A stretch of 35,576 nt of DNA from an uncultured Pelagibacteraceae bacterium (lineage in GTDB: Bacteria > Pseudomonadota > Alphaproteobacteria > Pelagibacterales > Pelagibacteraceae). The stretch lies in NCBI GenBank assembly GCA_902517865.1, contig CABYDT010000008.1:1-35576 (forward strand). The letters run 5' to 3'. Below, in pieces: positions 2,487 through 35,576 of the stretch (position 1 is its first letter; each line of letters starts with the position of its first letter). The position numbers and the translations under genes are program-made. Under the pieces are notes generated by a model. It saw only the letters and a program-made list of their open reading frames with translations. It did not search any database and was not told the DNA's origin.

Positions 2487-3286
2487 CTATAGAAAAAATT
2501 ATAAATGAGGCATGGGATAATAAAGAAAAAATTAATCCTCAATCGAGCAAAGAAATTTTAGATTCTATAAGTGAAACTTTTGATCTTCTTGATAAAGGAA
2601 AGATTAGAGTTGCAGAAAAAAGAGATGATAAATGGATTACTAATCAATGGATTAAAAAAGCAATAATGCTGAGTTTCAGAACAAATCCAATGGATACACT
2701 TAGCGGGCCTTATAGTAGTTGGTATGATAAATCACATTTGTTGAAAGGTAAAACAGCAGGTTGGGGTAAAGATGAACATGAAAAAGCTGGTTTTAGATTT
2801 GTTCCAAATGGACAAGTTAGGAAAGGATCATTTATTGGAAAAGGTGTTGTTTTAATGCCATGTTACGTGAATTCAGGTGTCTACATTGATGAAGGTACTA
2901 TGATGGATACTTTTTCACGAGCTGGTAGTTGTTGCCAAATAGGTAAAAATTGTCATATTTCTGCTGGATCAGGTATTGGAGGAGTATTAGAGCCCGCTCA
3001 AGCTTTGCCTACTATAATTGAGGATAATGTATTTGTAGGTGCTATGTCTGAGGTAGTTGAAGGAGTGATTGTTGGCAAAGGGAGTGTTCTATCAATGGGG
3101 TGCTATATTGGACAAAGTACAAAAATAGTGAATCGATCGACAGGCGAAATCACAAAAGGATTTGTTCCGCCCTACTCTGTGATTGTGCCTGGTGCTCATA
3201 AAGATTTATATGCAGTACACATTATTAAAACAGTTGATGAAAAAACAAGATCAAAAACTAGCATCAATGATTTGCTAAGAGATTGA
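2483..3286 (+). CDS. dapD: 2,3,4,5-tetrahydropyridine-2,6-dicarboxylate N-succinyltransferase
   Basis: DapD succinylates tetrahydrodipicolinate in the succinylase branch of lysine/meso-diaminopimelate synthesis. At 267 residues it is close to the usual ~275. It has an N-terminal helical domain, then from about residue 100 a left-handed beta-helix of hexapeptide repeats (for example GKGVVLMPCYVNSGVYIDEGT and GKNCHISAGSGIGGVLEP). The conserved MMDTFSRAGSCCQIG segment near 140-155 contributes to the active site. It overlaps the HAD gene by 4 bases and is 3 bases from dapE, the next-but-one step of the same pathway. Confidence 0.96.
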   Translation: MTIEKIINEAWDNKEKINPQSSKEILDSISETFDLLDKGKIRVAEKRDDKWITNQWIKKAIMLSFRTNPMDTLSGPYSSWYDKSHLLKGKTAGWGKDEHEKAGFRFVPNGQVRKGSFIGKGVVLMPCYVNSGVYIDEGTMMDTFSRAGSCCQIGKNCHISAGSGIGGVLEPAQALPTIIEDNVFVGAMSEVVEGVIVGKGSVLSMGCYIGQSTKIVNRSTGEITKGFVPPYSVIVPGAHKDLYAVHIIKTVDEKTRSKTSINDLLRD

Positions 3287-3289
3287 GAA

Positions 3290-4438
3290 ATGAACGAAAT
3301 TAAGATTGCAAAAGATCTTGTGAAATTTGCAAGTGTAACGCCGCTTGATAAGGGGGCGATTAACTACGTAGCTAGATCTCTCAAAAAACTCGGCTTTAGT
3401 TGTAAAATTTTAGAATTCAAAGAGAAAGGTACATACAAAATTAAAAATTTGTACGCTAAGATTGGTACGAAGAGACCTCATTTATGTTTTGCTGGACATA
3501 CCGATGTTGTGCCTATAGGTGATTTAAAAAAGTGGTCAGTTAATCCTTTTGGAGGTCAAATAAAGAACGGGGTACTATACGGTCGGGGGATTGCTGACAT
3601 GAAAGGTAATATTGCAAGTTTTATTTCGGCAACCTATGAATTTTTAAAAGATAATAAAAACTTTAATGGCTCACTTAGCTTTTTGATCACAGGTGATGAA
3701 GAGAGTGTTGCTATTAATGGTACAAAAAAAGTTGTTAAATATTTAAAAAAAAAAAAGGAAAAAATAGACTTTTGTTTGATCGGTGAGCCAACAAACCCAA
3801 ACAAGCTTGGAGAAGAGATCAAAATAGGTAGAAGAGGCAGTATTACAGGATATATAACGATTAGCGGTATTCAAGGTCACGTCGCTTACCCAAATAAAGC
3901 AAGAAACCCGTCAACACCTTTAATTAAAATTCTAAATGAAATTAAAAGTAAAAAATTAGATAAAGGTTCTAAAAATTTTCAGGCTTCAAATTTGGAAATA
4001 GTAAAAATTAATATAAATAATCTTGCAGACAATGTAATCCCATCAAAAGCAAGTGCAATTTTTAATATTAGATACAATGATAGACATACAAGTGAAAGTC
4101 TTAGGAGCAAAATATCTAAAATAATTAAAAAAACAGCAAAAAAATATAAATGTAAATATGATATTAAATTTCAGGAAACAGGTGGCGTATTTCTTTGTAA
4201 ACCCAACTCAACTGTTAATATGATTAGGAATATAATTAAAAAAAGTACCGGTAGAAATACAAAATTAACCACAGGAGGAGGAACCTCTGATGGCAGATTT
4301 ATCAAAGATATAGCACCATGTATTGAATTTGGTCTTGTAAATAAAACGATTCACCAAGTAAATGAGAGAGTTCCTATAGCTGATTTAAAAAAATTAAAAA
4401 ATATATATAAAAAAATTTTACAAAATTATTATAAGTGA
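3290..4438 (+). CDS. dapE: Succinyl-diaminopimelate desuccinylase
   Basis: DapE removes succinate from N-succinyl-LL-diaminopimelate using two zinc ions. It has 382 residues (family 375-385). Metal ligands and catalytic residues of M20 peptidases are visible: GHTDVVP (H70, D72), RGIADMKG (D103), GDEES (catalytic E137, ligand E138), GEPTN near 166, and the C-terminal ligand His in TIHQVNE near 355. The dimerisation lid starts at GRRGSITGYI. A run of ten or more A bases near 3746 is read through in frame. The stop TGA overlaps the GTG start of the next gene. Confidence 0.96.
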   Translation: MNEIKIAKDLVKFASVTPLDKGAINYVARSLKKLGFSCKILEFKEKGTYKIKNLYAKIGTKRPHLCFAGHTDVVPIGDLKKWSVNPFGGQIKNGVLYGRGIADMKGNIASFISATYEFLKDNKNFNGSLSFLITGDEESVAINGTKKVVKYLKKKKEKIDFCLIGEPTNPNKLGEEIKIGRRGSITGYITISGIQGHVAYPNKARNPSTPLIKILNEIKSKKLDKGSKNFQASNLEIVKININNLADNVIPSKASAIFNIRYNDRHTSESLRSKISKIIKKTAKKYKCKYDIKFQETGGVFLCKPNSTVNMIRNIIKKSTGRNTKLTTGGGTSDGRFIKDIAPCIEFGLVNKTIHQVNERVPIADLKKLKNIYKKILQNYYK

Positions 4439-5358
4439 AGACTTGTCTGATCACTACAAAAACATATCAAAATCATGATAATGGGCCTGGGCATCCAGAA
4501 AATGTAAATAGGGTAACTTCAATCAATACTGCAATAGATAATATTAAAAATACAGAGTGGGTTGAAACAAAAAATTTTAGCACGAAATTGATTGAACTAG
4601 CTCATGACAAAAAATATATAGAAAAAGTAAATAATTCATTTCCTAATAATGGTTTAGCTTTTTTAGATTCAGATACAATTGTATCTCAAGGATCAAAACA
4701 AGCATCTTATGATGCAGTAAATTCTGTTCTTACTGCTATAGATAATGTCCAAGATGGATCTTATCAAAATGCATTTGTTAGCATAAGACCACCAGGACAT
4801 CACGCCCACAGCAATTTTGCTGCTGGTTTTTGTATATTTAATAACATCGCTATTGGAGCATGTTATTTAGTTAAAAATTATAACTTAAAAAGAGTATTGA
4901 TTTTAGATTGGGACGTGCATAGAGGTGATGGAACAGCTGAAATTATATCTAATAAAAAAAATATATTTTTAATTTCTTCACATCAATATCCATTTTATCC
5001 TCCTGGAGATGGTACTGAAAAGGTAAGAGGTCATTTTGATAACATTCGTTTCTTTCCTCTCAAAGCAGGTTTGTCATCAAATGAATTTCATAAGATTTAT
5101 GAAAAAATATTTATTGAAATCGACAAATATCAACCTGAATTTATATTAATATCCTGTGGTTTTGATGCCCATAAAAAAGACCCTTTAGCCGAGATTAATC
5201 TGGAATCAATTGATTATGAATATTTAACTCTTAAACTAAAAAAATATGCTGGAAAACATTGTGCTGGAAAAATAGTTTCCGTTTTAGAAGGTGGATATGA
5301 TTTAAAATCAATTTCAGAAAGCTCTAAATTTCACGTAAAGTCTTTAGCTAAAATCTAA
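4435..5358 (+). CDS. Histone-deacetylase-family (class II-like) deacetylase
   Basis: A 307-residue zinc-dependent amidohydrolase of the arginase/HDAC fold. The active-site His pair is in PGHHAH (H122, H123). The zinc ligands are D160 and H162 in DWDVHRGDG and D244 in CGFDAH, and LEGGYDL supplies the C-terminal Gly-Gly-Tyr that binds the acyl carbonyl. Bacterial members deacetylate acetylpolyamines, acetyl-lysine or related amides; the substrate here is not known. The start is GTG at 4435, inside the dapE stop. Position at the end of a dap operon could mean a link to acetylated diamino compounds, but that is only inference. Its stop overlaps the stop of the convergent DUF1192 gene by 4 bases. 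Confidence 0.9.
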   Translation: MKTCLITTKTYQNHDNGPGHPENVNRVTSINTAIDNIKNTEWVETKNFSTKLIELAHDKKYIEKVNNSFPNNGLAFLDSDTIVSQGSKQASYDAVNSVLTAIDNVQDGSYQNAFVSIRPPGHHAHSNFAAGFCIFNNIAIGACYLVKNYNLKRVLILDWDVHRGDGTAEIISNKKNIFLISSHQYPFYPPGDGTEKVRGHFDNIRFFPLKAGLSSNEFHKIYEKIFIEIDKYQPEFILISCGFDAHKKDPLAEINLESIDYEYLTLKLKKYAGKHCAGKIVSVLEGGYDLKSISESSKFHVKSLAKI

Positions 5359-31305: not shown

Positions 31306-32534
31306 TGGAAAATTTTCGTTTTAAGGGCAACAAGCTCCTTTGGAATAATTATTCTTTGGATACAATAGCTAAAAAAAATAAAACACCTTTTTATTTATAC
31401 TCTTATAATCAATTAAAAACAAACGTAAGTAATTTTAAAAAAACTTTTAATAAAACAAATCCATTAATTTGTTTTTCTTTAAAATCAAACTCAAACCAAA
31501 AAATAATTAAAGAATACGCTGAATTAGGAATAGGCGCAGATGTAGTATCAATAGGAGAGCTGAAGTTGGCATTAAAATCAAATATTAAACCAAATAAAAT
31601 AGTTTTTTCGGGAGTAGGAAAAACAATAGAAGAGTTAAGATATGCAATCTCAAAGAAGATTTTTTTAATAAACTGCGAGTCATTTAGTGAAGTGAAATTG
31701 ATTAATTCTTTATCAAAAAAAATGAAATTAAAAACAAAAATTGGTCTTAGGCTAAATCCAAATATTAATGCAAAGACTCATAGTAAAATATCTACTGGTA
31801 ACGACAAAGATAAGTTTGGATTATCAAAATTAGAGTTCAAAAAAGTAATTATGAATTTTAAAAATAGCGATTTTATTGAAATATCAGCTTTAACTATTCA
31901 TATTGGTAGTCAAATTAAGGAAGTTTTTCCATTTAATAATTGTCTTAATTTTTTAAACAAAACTATAGCTGATCTAAAGAAAGCTAATATCAAAATTAAA
32001 TACGTTGATTTAGGAGGAGGTATGAGTATTCCATATGACTTTAAGGAAACCAAATTTCCCCTAAAAAAGTATGCTAGTAATGTTTATAATTTTAAGAAAA
32101 AGAACAATGTAAAAATAATATTTGAACCTGGACGTTTTTTAAGTGGTAATGTTGGCATTATTATATCCAAAATTATTTATATAAAAGAAGGAGCCAAAAA
32201 GAAGTTTATAGTAACAGATGCAGCAATGAATGATTTAATTAGAACTGCTTTATATGATGCAAATCATACAATATTGCCTATTAATCGTAGGAAAGAAATT
32301 AAGTCTAGGATAGAATTTGTTGGCCCAATTTGTGAAAGTAGTGATAAATTTGGTGAATATAAGAAGTTCTCCAGACTAGAAGAGAGTGACTATATATGTA
32401 TTACGAATACTGGCGCTTACGGGAGAAGCCTCTCATCAAATTACAATATGAGACCTTTGATTGCAGAATTGCTGATTAAAAATAACAAAATTTTAATTAT
32501 AAGAAAAAGACAAAATATAAATCAAATATCGTAA
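31305..32534 (+). CDS. lysA: Diaminopimelate decarboxylase
   Basis: A PLP enzyme of fold type III that converts meso-DAP to lysine, 409 residues. PLP-binding K60 is in CFSLKSNSN, HIGSQI and the Gly-rich DLGGGMSIPY position the phosphate, EPGRFL is the second family motif, and CESSDKF and NTGAYG contribute the active-site Cys and Tyr from the partner subunit. It completes the lysine pathway whose dapD and dapE lie at 2.5-4.4 kb. Confidence 0.96.
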   Translation: MENFRFKGNKLLWNNYSLDTIAKKNKTPFYLYSYNQLKTNVSNFKKTFNKTNPLICFSLKSNSNQKIIKEYAELGIGADVVSIGELKLALKSNIKPNKIVFSGVGKTIEELRYAISKKIFLINCESFSEVKLINSLSKKMKLKTKIGLRLNPNINAKTHSKISTGNDKDKFGLSKLEFKKVIMNFKNSDFIEISALTIHIGSQIKEVFPFNNCLNFLNKTIADLKKANIKIKYVDLGGGMSIPYDFKETKFPLKKYASNVYNFKKKNNVKIIFEPGRFLSGNVGIIISKIIYIKEGAKKKFIVTDAAMNDLIRTALYDANHTILPINRRKEIKSRIEFVGPICESSDKFGEYKKFSRLEESDYICITNTGAYGRSLSSNYNMRPLIAELLIKNNKILIIRKRQNINQIS

Positions 32535-32536
32535 AC

Positions 32537-33229
32537 GTGAAATTAATCAAATCTTTTATATTCAATATTTGTATCTTTGTTATGATTGCGATTACATGTA
32601 TAATTTCATTGCCTCTTTTGTTTTTGCCTAGAAAACAATTTCTTTCAAAGTTAGTCTATTTTTTAGGTTGGTATTTTATTTTTATATCAAAATTACTGTA
32701 TAATATAAAAATTGAAATATCAGGCCTTGAGAATCTTCATAAACATAATAACTTTATAATAGCGAGCGCACACCAATCTATGTTCGAAACCTTTGTATTT
32801 AATTATCTGGTGCCAGATGCTTTTTTTGTTATCAAAAAAGAACTGTTATTTATACCACTGTATAATTTATATTTAAAAAAACTTGGTTATGTTCCAATTG
32901 AAAGAGAAAAAGTTACTAAAAAAAATTTAAATTTTTATGAGAGAATTTCTCATAATGTATTAATAGAAAAAAGAAAATTAATCATATTTCCCCATGGTAC
33001 AAGAGTTAAAGCAGACCAAGAGTATCCAATAAAAAAGGGTGTTTACAAAATATATAAAAATTTGAATATTCCATGTATTCCAGTTTATCTTAATTCTGGA
33101 AATTTTTGGCCAAGGAATAGCTTCATGAAATACGCATCTAACATCAAGATAATTTTTAAAGAACCTATTTTAGAAGGATTGGAAAATGATGATTTCTTAA
33201 AACAATTATCTAATAAAATTCATTATTGA
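32537..33229 (+). CDS. plsC: 1-acyl-sn-glycerol-3-phosphate acyltransferase (PlsC-like)
   Basis: A 230-residue membrane-bound acyltransferase. An N-terminal membrane segment (~8-30) precedes the catalytic block: AHQSMFET at 78-85 is the H-x4-D/E motif (H79, E84, so the Glu variant), PIERE is block III and FPHGTR at 151-156 is the FPEGTR motif with His for Glu. Both variants resemble those of the proteobacterial KHQSAWET/FPQGTR branch. The start is GTG at 32537, two bases after lysA. Its end overlaps the convergent tyrA by 7 bases. Confidence 0.87.
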   Translation: MKLIKSFIFNICIFVMIAITCIISLPLLFLPRKQFLSKLVYFLGWYFIFISKLLYNIKIEISGLENLHKHNNFIIASAHQSMFETFVFNYLVPDAFFVIKKELLFIPLYNLYLKKLGYVPIEREKVTKKNLNFYERISHNVLIEKRKLIIFPHGTRVKADQEYPIKKGVYKIYKNLNIPCIPVYLNSGNFWPRNSFMKYASNIKIIFKEPILEGLENDDFLKQLSNKIHY

Positions 33230-34128
33230 TTTTTTCGTCCAAAGTTTGGTTCCTTAACATCTTGGCCTTCCTCAACAATTCGCTTCCTAATATCTCTAGT
33301 TTTATCAAAAATATTGAATAATTTTTCCTTATCATCATTTACAATTGCATTTTTCAATCCGTTCAAATCTTTTTCAAATTTCTCTAACATTTTAAGTATT
33401 GGTTCTTTATTACTAAGTATGATGTCTCTCCACATAGTAGGATCCGATGAAGCAATTCGTGTAAAATCTCTAAAACCACTTGCACTATATTTAATAACTT
33501 CCTCTTTAAGATTATCTTCTAATTCGGAAGCGGTACCTACTATATTATATGCAATGATATGGGGGATATGGCTAGTAATAGCCATAATAGAATCGTGATC
33601 GTTCATATCCATTATCTGAATTTTGCATCCAAATGATTTCCACAAATTAGAAATAATTTTAACACTTTTGTCATCAGAATTTTTACATGGTGTTATTATT
33701 AGCCATTTATTATTAAATAAACCTTTAAAACCAGACTCAGGACCACTTTGTTCTGTACCCGCAATAGGGTGTGCCGGTACAAATTTTATATTTTTAGTTA
33801 ATATATTTTGAGCATTTTTTATAACTTCAGTTTTACAGGAGCCAACATCAGTTATAATTGTTTCATTACTAAGCTTAAATTTGTTTAATTTCTCAAATAA
33901 AGATCTGTAAGCACTAATTGGCGTGCAGATAAAAATTATTTCAGTTTTATCTATAAATGTTGATATTTCCTCAAAATAATTATTACCTAAATTTAATTTT
34001 TTAGATTTCTCTAAGACCGTATTTGAATTATCAACAATATTAATAATAACATCATTATTTTTTTCTCTAATATCTCTTGCGATTGATGAACCTATTAATC
34101 CAATACCAATAATTGTTATGTTTTTCAT
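33223..34128 (-). CDS. tyrA: Prephenate/arogenate dehydrogenase
   Basis: An NAD(P)-dependent enzyme of tyrosine synthesis, 301 residues, with no fused mutase or ACT domain seen. The Rossmann motif is GIGLIG at 8-13, VGSCKTEV near 93 and PAHPIAGTEQSGP (catalytic His) near 120-132 follow, and the C-terminal helical dimerisation domain contains SHIPHIIAY and the GFRDFTRIASSDPTMW signature. It starts one base after the stop of the upstream chimeric gene, the usual hisC-tyrA linkage. Confidence 0.95.
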   Translation of the reverse strand: MKNITIIGIGLIGSSIARDIREKNNDVIINIVDNSNTVLEKSKKLNLGNNYFEEISTFIDKTEIIFICTPISAYRSLFEKLNKFKLSNETIITDVGSCKTEVIKNAQNILTKNIKFVPAHPIAGTEQSGPESGFKGLFNNKWLIITPCKNSDDKSVKIISNLWKSFGCKIQIMDMNDHDSIMAITSHIPHIIAYNIVGTASELEDNLKEEVIKYSASGFRDFTRIASSDPTMWRDIILSNKEPILKMLEKFEKDLNGLKNAIVNDDKEKLFNIFDKTRDIRKRIVEEGQDVKEPNFGRKNQ

Positions 34129-34129
34129 A

Positions 34130-35116
34130 TTAAATTTTACTCTCTAATACTTTTAAAAATTTTTTATTTTCTTTATCATTTCCAATCGATACTCTTAAGG
34201 AGTTTTTTATTCTATAAGAAGTCATTTTTCTTAATAAGATATTATACTTTAAGAATATATTAAAAATGTCATCTGAATTTAATTTAAGATTATCACAATT
34301 CATCAAAAAAAAATTTGCACAAGGCTTGTTAATTTTAAATTTCTTTTCTGACAATTTTTTATAGAAAATCTTTGACCATTTAGTGTTGTGTTTAATGTTT
34401 TTATTTAGCCATTTTTGATTGCCTAGCGAAGCAATACCCGCTTCCTGTGTTACACCCGAAATATTAAATGGTGGTCTAATCAAATTGAGAGATTTGACTA
34501 TTTCTTTTGAACTGTAACCCCAGCCAAGTCTCAGATTTGCTATACCATATATTTTAGAAAATGTTCTACAAACAATTACATTTTTAAAATCTTTGAATAA
34601 ATCTAGACCAGATCTAAAATCTTTACTAATCATAAATTCCGCATAGGCATCATCGATCATTAATAATATATGACTTGGAATAAGTGATCTTAATTTTAAA
34701 ATATCTTCTTTACCTAAGTATGTACCAGTTGGATTATTTGGATTTGCAATAAAAATTATTTTGGTTCTATTTGTTATAGATTTAATAGTTTCCTCACAAA
34801 TTTCTTTTGGACCTGTACTACCCATGCACCCACCAATTACATTAGCACAGATAACAAAATACTTGTTTGTATCAATTGGCTTATTTGCTCCAACTACTAA
34901 GTTCCACCAACCATCTTTCCCAGTTACTTTATTGATACCTGTAACAAATTGGTCTCCTGACAAGGCATGAAAAACTAGTATGGCATTTGTCTTGTTTTGG
35001 TCTAGTTTTCCATAAGTTTCAAACGCAATATTAAACTTATCTAGCTGAATACCACAATCCAACAGAAGTTTCTTATTAATAGTTAATTTATTTATTTTAT
35101 CAAAATTTAGTTTCAT
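34130..35116 (-). CDS. In-frame chimera: MetX N-terminus fused to HisC C-terminus
   Basis: A continuous 328-residue frame that joins two unrelated proteins. Residues 1 to ~105 are the start of homoserine O-acetyltransferase Met[35 protein letters not shown] and GGCMGSTGP. From about 107 on it is histidinol-phosphate aminotransferase HisC ([10 protein letters not shown] at 124-133, DDAYAEF at 155-161, [16 protein letters not shown] with PLP-Lys K188, C-terminal SLRVSIG). The join is near 34790-34804. The MetX part lacks the nucleophile Ser, the Asp and the His of its triad; the HisC part lacks the N-terminal ~140 residues. Neither activity is expected to be whole. It is preceded by a SAM-II riboswitch and followed one base later by tyrA. 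A genome rearrangement or an amplification/assembly artefact are both possible. Confidence 0.9.
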
Positions 35117-35121
35117 TCTTT

Positions 35122-35143
35122 AAATCGTATGTTGTTACGATTT
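35122..35143 (-). promoter_or_regulatory. Hairpin between riboswitch and start codon
   Basis: A perfect 8-base stem, AAATCGTA and TACGATTT, with a 6-base loop, sits between the riboswitch's terminal AAAAAGG and the ATG at 35116. Folded, it would bring the AAGG sequence close to the start codon, so it may allow this distant Shine-Dalgarno to act. It has no T run after it and does not look like a terminator. Confidence 0.55.
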
Positions 35144-35192
35144 CCTTTTTAGCAGTTTATGCCTGCAATTTGGCTAAATCGGCGCTTGCATG
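35144..35192 (-). promoter_or_regulatory. SAM-II (SAM-alpha) riboswitch
   Basis: On the minus strand the core reads GCGCC, GATTTAGCC, then TTGCA, GGCATAAA and TGCTAAAAAGG. This follows the SAM-II consensus I recall (GATTTxxCC, TTGCA, TAAA, GCTAAAaAGG), with loop spacing equal to the Agrobacterium metA example. TTTAGC in the loop and GCTAAA near the 3' end are complementary, as a pseudoknot needs. The P1 helix is weak here (clear only as GCC/GGC), which lowers certainty. SAM-II elements of Alphaproteobacteria control metA/metX by hiding the Shine-Dalgarno when SAM is bound. Confidence 0.82.
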
Positions 35193-35197
35193 TTGTA

Positions 35198-35220
35198 CTA
35201 AAAGGTAAAAAAATTGTCAA
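35198..35220 (-). promoter_or_regulatory. Promoter of the metX leader
   Basis: A perfect TTGACA at 35220-35215 on the minus strand is followed after 17 bases by TACAAC at 35197-35192, a 4/6 match to TATAAT. A start around 35186-35190 would place the riboswitch at the very 5' end of the transcript, as expected for SAM-II. Confidence 0.6.
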
Positions 35221-35253
35221 ACTATCTTAGGTTTTACAGTAATGAATAAGTAA

Positions 35254-35259
35254 TATAAT
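35254..35259 (+). promoter_or_regulatory. Possible -10 element for the plus-strand hisC fragment
   Basis: A perfect TATAAT lies 16 bases before the ATG at 35276. TTTACA at 35233-35238 could be the -35 but its spacing (15) is short. If used, the leader would be about 10 bases. Confidence 0.35.
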
Positions 35260-35275
35260 AAGACATAAAATAATA

Positions 35276-35576
35276 ATGAAGTTACCTACAGCAAAAAATA
35301 TACATATTGATAGCTACTCTTCTGGACTATCTAGAATAGTCAATAGCACTAATTTAATCAAATTATCTCAGAACGAGACACCACTTGGACCATGTTCTGA
35401 GGTATCTAAAATTATAAAAAAAAGTTTAATTAATGTGTCACGCTACCCTGACGGTAACTCAAGTTTATTAAGAGAAAAATTAAGTAAAAAATTTAAATTA
35501 AATAAAGATCAAATAATTATTGGATGTGGTTCTGATGAAATTATTAGTTTAGTTTGTCAAGCATTTTTAGATAAAG
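35276..35576 (+). CDS. hisC: Histidinol-phosphate aminotransferase, N-terminal part (runs off window)
   Basis: An open frame of 100 codons from ATG at 35276 to the window end. SQNETPLGP near 32-40, RYPDGNSSLLREKLSKKF and GCGSDEIISLVCQAF are the N-terminal hallmarks of HisC (substrate loop, Y-P-D/E-G, and the G-x-G/S-DE motif of the PLP cofactor site). The part seen stops before the PNNPTG motif. It is exactly the region missing from the chimeric gene on the opposite strand at 34130, and the two do not overlap in content. Whether it continues into the rest of HisC or into MetX is decided outside the window. Confidence 0.9.
   Translation, partial: MKLPTAKNIHIDSYSSGLSRIVNSTNLIKLSQNETPLGPCSEVSKIIKKSLINVSRYPDGNSSLLREKLSKKFKLNKDQIIIGCGSDEIISLVCQAFLDK

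Follow-up and report, generated by a model that had tools for sequence, protein, structure and literature searches.

The minus-strand frame at 34130-35116 begins as MetX (homoserine O-acetyl/succinyltransferase) and ends as HisC (histidinol-phosphate transaminase), which raises the question of whether these two proteins are truly fused in this bacterium. The window, i.e. the whole stretch of DNA that was analysed, is the complete contig C8 (35,576 bases), one of 16 contigs in an assembly that totals 962,553 bases and is 85.6% complete.

Extent and family split of the fused frame

The frame is open over 328 codons, without a single internal stop. Its MetX portion extends to about residue 110 and its HisC portion starts at about residue 108, with residues 9-113 matching the MetX model NF001209 (NCBIfam, 2.5e-38) and residues 104-325 matching the HisC model TIGR01141 (NCBIfam, 2.6e-53, profile positions 126-347 of 349). 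A search of the fused protein against the PDB splits it at the same place. On neither model does it score as a whole protein. The MetX match, covering residues 9-113 only, reaches 131.9 bits against a curated cut-off of 331, while the MetX of an intact relative reaches 511.8 bits on the same model; the HisC match (profile 126-347) reaches 181.1 bits against a curated cut-off of 276.55, with 304.8 and 297.1 bits for the HisC proteins of intact relatives.

The first ~110 residues are those of an ordinary MetX, but the frame leaves this family before it reaches the catalytic nucleophile, whose motif is LGGSMGG in an intact relative, and the remainder of MetX is missing. The last ~220 residues are those of an ordinary HisC lacking its N-terminal ~138 residues. 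The first 100 of these are encoded at the contig end, so that HisC, unlike in an ordinary gene, is present as two pieces on opposite strands, and the ~38 codons between them are absent from the contig. The first-pass annotation had placed the change of family at about residue 105 (34790-34804), in frame and without a stop, and had considered neither half a complete enzyme and bifunctionality unlikely. These points all stood, with the junction now set by DNA comparison at 34788-34792 (codons 109-110) and the HisC N-terminus found inverted next door. A bifunctional MetX-HisC enzyme is not supported.

Contig layout and comparison with relatives

The key to the fused frame lies in the last 300 bases of the contig (35276-35575, plus strand), which encode HisC residues 1-100, i.e. 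the N-terminus that is missing from the fusion, in divergent orientation to the MetX part. Among 40 relatives, 32 have metX and hisC in divergent orientation, as separate frames on opposite strands within ~1.5 kb of each other. The two genes are not neighbours in G007 (contig C1) and G020 (contigs C2 and C38), where they lie far apart or on different contigs. In the same-genus relative G002 (locus L034), both are full length, with hisC at 2593-3669 on the minus strand and metX at 3828-4961 on the plus strand, the latter being followed by metW, gloB and rplU as read from their translations.

Based on blastn, window positions 32001-34792 (tyrA and the hisC 3' part) are collinear with L034 464-3255 on the plus strand, and positions 34788-35575 (the metX 5' part, the intergenic region and the hisC 5' part) correspond to L034 4156-3370 on the minus strand. 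Since these two pieces are of opposite strand, the fusion point is an inverted junction, and the joined sites (L034 3255 and 4156) are ~900 bp apart. The gene tyrA (prephenate/arogenate dehydrogenase; 33223-34128, minus strand), the native downstream neighbour of hisC, has the same position as in L034. The hisC 3' part (34130-34792, minus strand; from about residue 139 to the end) matches the HisC model, is 86% identical to the HisC of G002 and precedes tyrA as it natively does, the collinearity with L034 extending to 3255. At 34788-34792 (GTTTC on the plus strand) the opposite-strand alignments overlap by 5 bp, as measured on the sequence of the relative and with one mismatch on the metX side. 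Then follow the metX 5' part (34788-35116, minus strand; ~110 codons), which matches the MetX model and L034 from 4156 downwards on its minus strand and is inverted with respect to its native orientation beside hisC, the inverted intergenic spacer that separates the divergent starts of metX and hisC (35117-35275, by alignment to L034) and the inverted hisC 5' part at 35276-35575, identified by both the HisC model and the L034 alignment and running off the contig end.

The junction is located 785 bp from the end of the contig. Another ~114 bp would have taken the inverted arm into hisC sequence that the contig already carries on the far side of the junction. Set against its relatives, what had been proposed as a real chimeric gene thus appears as an inverted junction between nearby sites, located where a contig ends. 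Contamination was rejected as a source, as the MetX and HisC halves are both closest to the same-genus relative.

Neither at the DNA nor at the protein level were the metX 3' part and the genes following it found in this assembly, one of these searches having no positive control of its own; the end of the contig thus coincides with a gap in the assembly. With hisD intact and a full-length PLP enzyme of Cys/Met metabolism at the end of contig C1, the histidine and methionine routes show no other sign of loss, and these apparently retained pathways would be interrupted if both hisC and metX had really been lost. None of the 20 other contig-end proteins examined with Pfam joins two families, indicating that chimeras of this kind are infrequent here, and the other contig ends carry no inverted repeats of note.

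A second case and a wider survey

The junction peptide was searched in 197 and then in 397 genomes of the family. A second fused frame was found in G072, which belongs to another genus, on contig C9 (150-1160), followed by tyrA as in the window and again at a contig end. The first-pass annotation had raised the possibility of many independent genomes sharing the same intact fusion; fused frames occur in 2 of the 397 genomes of the family, in each case at a contig end, and their breakpoints differ. The junction of G072 is also inverted when compared to three same-genus relatives, with a 14-bp alignment overlap (L068 463-476) that contains mismatches to these relatives. It joins codons for GPKE in metX to codons for AKEKN in hisC. 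Compared to the window, the breakpoints are approximately 5 codons apart in metX and 8 codons apart in hisC, and because they differ, the two events look independent. As for the window's assembly, the rest of metX and the genes following it were not found in G072, while this search recovered the entire region in the control genome G049.

No further fused frame was retrieved from a drawn sample of 397 genomes of the order, nor any reciprocal HisC_N-MetX_C frame from 197 genomes of the family. Genus-wide searches of g4 and g5 at 1e-25, which had no positive control for sensitivity, were empty as well. A match in G009 that spans the junction peptide was discarded, being an ordinary hisC frame with metX separate from it.

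By a crude estimate, random foldback would lead to 0.0002-0.02 further cases in 397 genomes. Two foldback junctions in two genera, a few codons apart in both genes, are more than this predicts. Microhomology, such as that of the GPKE and AKEKN codons in G072, may favour the place at which metX and hisC are joined, but no site near the junction stood out when a hotspot of long sequence shared by hisC and metX was looked for in the comparable loci of five relatives.

Origin of the fused frame

The fused frame is very probably an amplification or assembly artefact that stems from a foldback (inverted) DNA chimera. The organism itself almost certainly carries hisC-tyrA and metX as ordinary genes in divergent orientation. 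During amplification, which we infer for the sequenced DNA, a displaced 3' end would have copied tyrA and the hisC 3' part. It might then have switched strands: pairing by a few homologous bases with single-stranded metX sequence close by, it would have primed synthesis in the reverse direction, across the 5' end of metX, the intergenic region and the 5' end of hisC. The assembler would have followed this chimeric molecule to the contig end, and the frame would have been retained by chance (1 in 3).

The inversion, the short range, the 5-bp overlap, the contig end and the absence of the metX remainder match the published signature of foldback in multiple displacement amplification (MDA) and hence argue for an artefact. 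Among the MDA chimeras studied by Lasken and Stockwell (2007, PMC1855051), 85% combined an inversion with a deletion of the intervening sequence, the inverted pairs were mostly less than 10 kb apart, and most junctions had 2-21 nt of complementarity. Likewise, the second segment of the window is inverted with respect to the genomic orientation (34788-35575 minus and 32001-34792 plus, relative to L034), the ~900 bp between its joined sites is below 10 kb, and the overlaps of the window (5 bp) and of G072 (14 bp) fall within 2-21 nt. In contrast to the chimeras of that study, the one described here is found in an assembled contig and not in reads, and amplification of the sample is presumed. In a published single-cell pipeline, 100 bp is trimmed from each contig end and contigs above 2,000 bp are retained (PMC5519541), with which the shortest contig of this assembly (2,016 b) is compatible. 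If such end trimming was applied here, the untrimmed contig would have ended ~14 bp before the foldback arm meets its own copy.

A foldback chimera can thus yield a clean in-frame 'fusion gene' that is liable to enter protein databases, and nearly the same false fusion can arise in two genomes. Suspicion is therefore warranted for contig-end fusions whose component genes lie side by side in divergent orientation in relatives.

A real inversion in the cell, in which the segment from about codon 139 of hisC to about codon 110 of metX was flipped and both genes were inactivated, is improbable. It would give MetX_N-HisC_C at this position and HisC_N-MetX_C just beyond the contig end, and the layout up to the contig end is exactly as predicted; a nearly identical junction in a second genus, rare under random artefacts, also speaks for it. 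However, the second junction is missing here and its reciprocal frame was not found in the 197 family genomes surveyed, the two cases have different breakpoints and both lie at contig ends beside an assembly gap, and the breakpoint sites of the relatives show no conspicuous long inverted repeat or conserved site of recombination. Moreover, hisC and metX would be destroyed while hisD and the Cys/Met-metabolism enzyme remain. Due to the near-coincidence of the two breakpoints, a small probability, somewhat lower again, is left that the divergent promoter segment between hisC and metX truly inverts in a recurrent manner in marine Pelagibacter-like bacteria, turning both genes off together in the two genera. 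If true, the inversion would switch histidine and methionine synthesis as a pair.

A purely computational misjoin of unamplified reads, with no physical chimeric molecule, would also yield an inverted join at a contig end. However, assemblers normally require shared words far longer than the overlaps seen here (5 bp, and at most 14 bp in G072), which makes a physical junction-spanning molecule more likely, so this explanation is left with a slimmer chance still. Finally, a bifunctional or newly functional fusion protein is scarcely credible: the frame is open behind the native metX start and leader, but it lacks both the MetX nucleophile motif and the HisC N-terminus, the latter lying inverted beside it.

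Other features of the assembly

Contigs C15 (L066 1-2090) and C16 (L067 1-2016) each consist of a single end-to-end open frame, of 696 and 672 aa respectively. Neither frame has a match in Pfam, and both are perhaps pieces of one giant protein gene. Directly before metX in the window (35128-35192, minus strand), there is a sub-threshold match to the SAM_alpha riboswitch, in a stretch that is strongly conserved between this genome and G002. Sub-threshold SAM-II / SAM_alpha matches in this position before metX also occur in genus g3 (L068 61-120, L069 3564-3627 and L071 2518-2578), and the Rfam models seem to miss a divergent form of the riboswitch in these bacteria. At the other end of the window, the yidC frame, which runs in from beyond the contig, has a stop codon within its first bases (1-5). 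The YidC C-terminal part beside it is otherwise normal-looking, and the stop could be a contig-end error.
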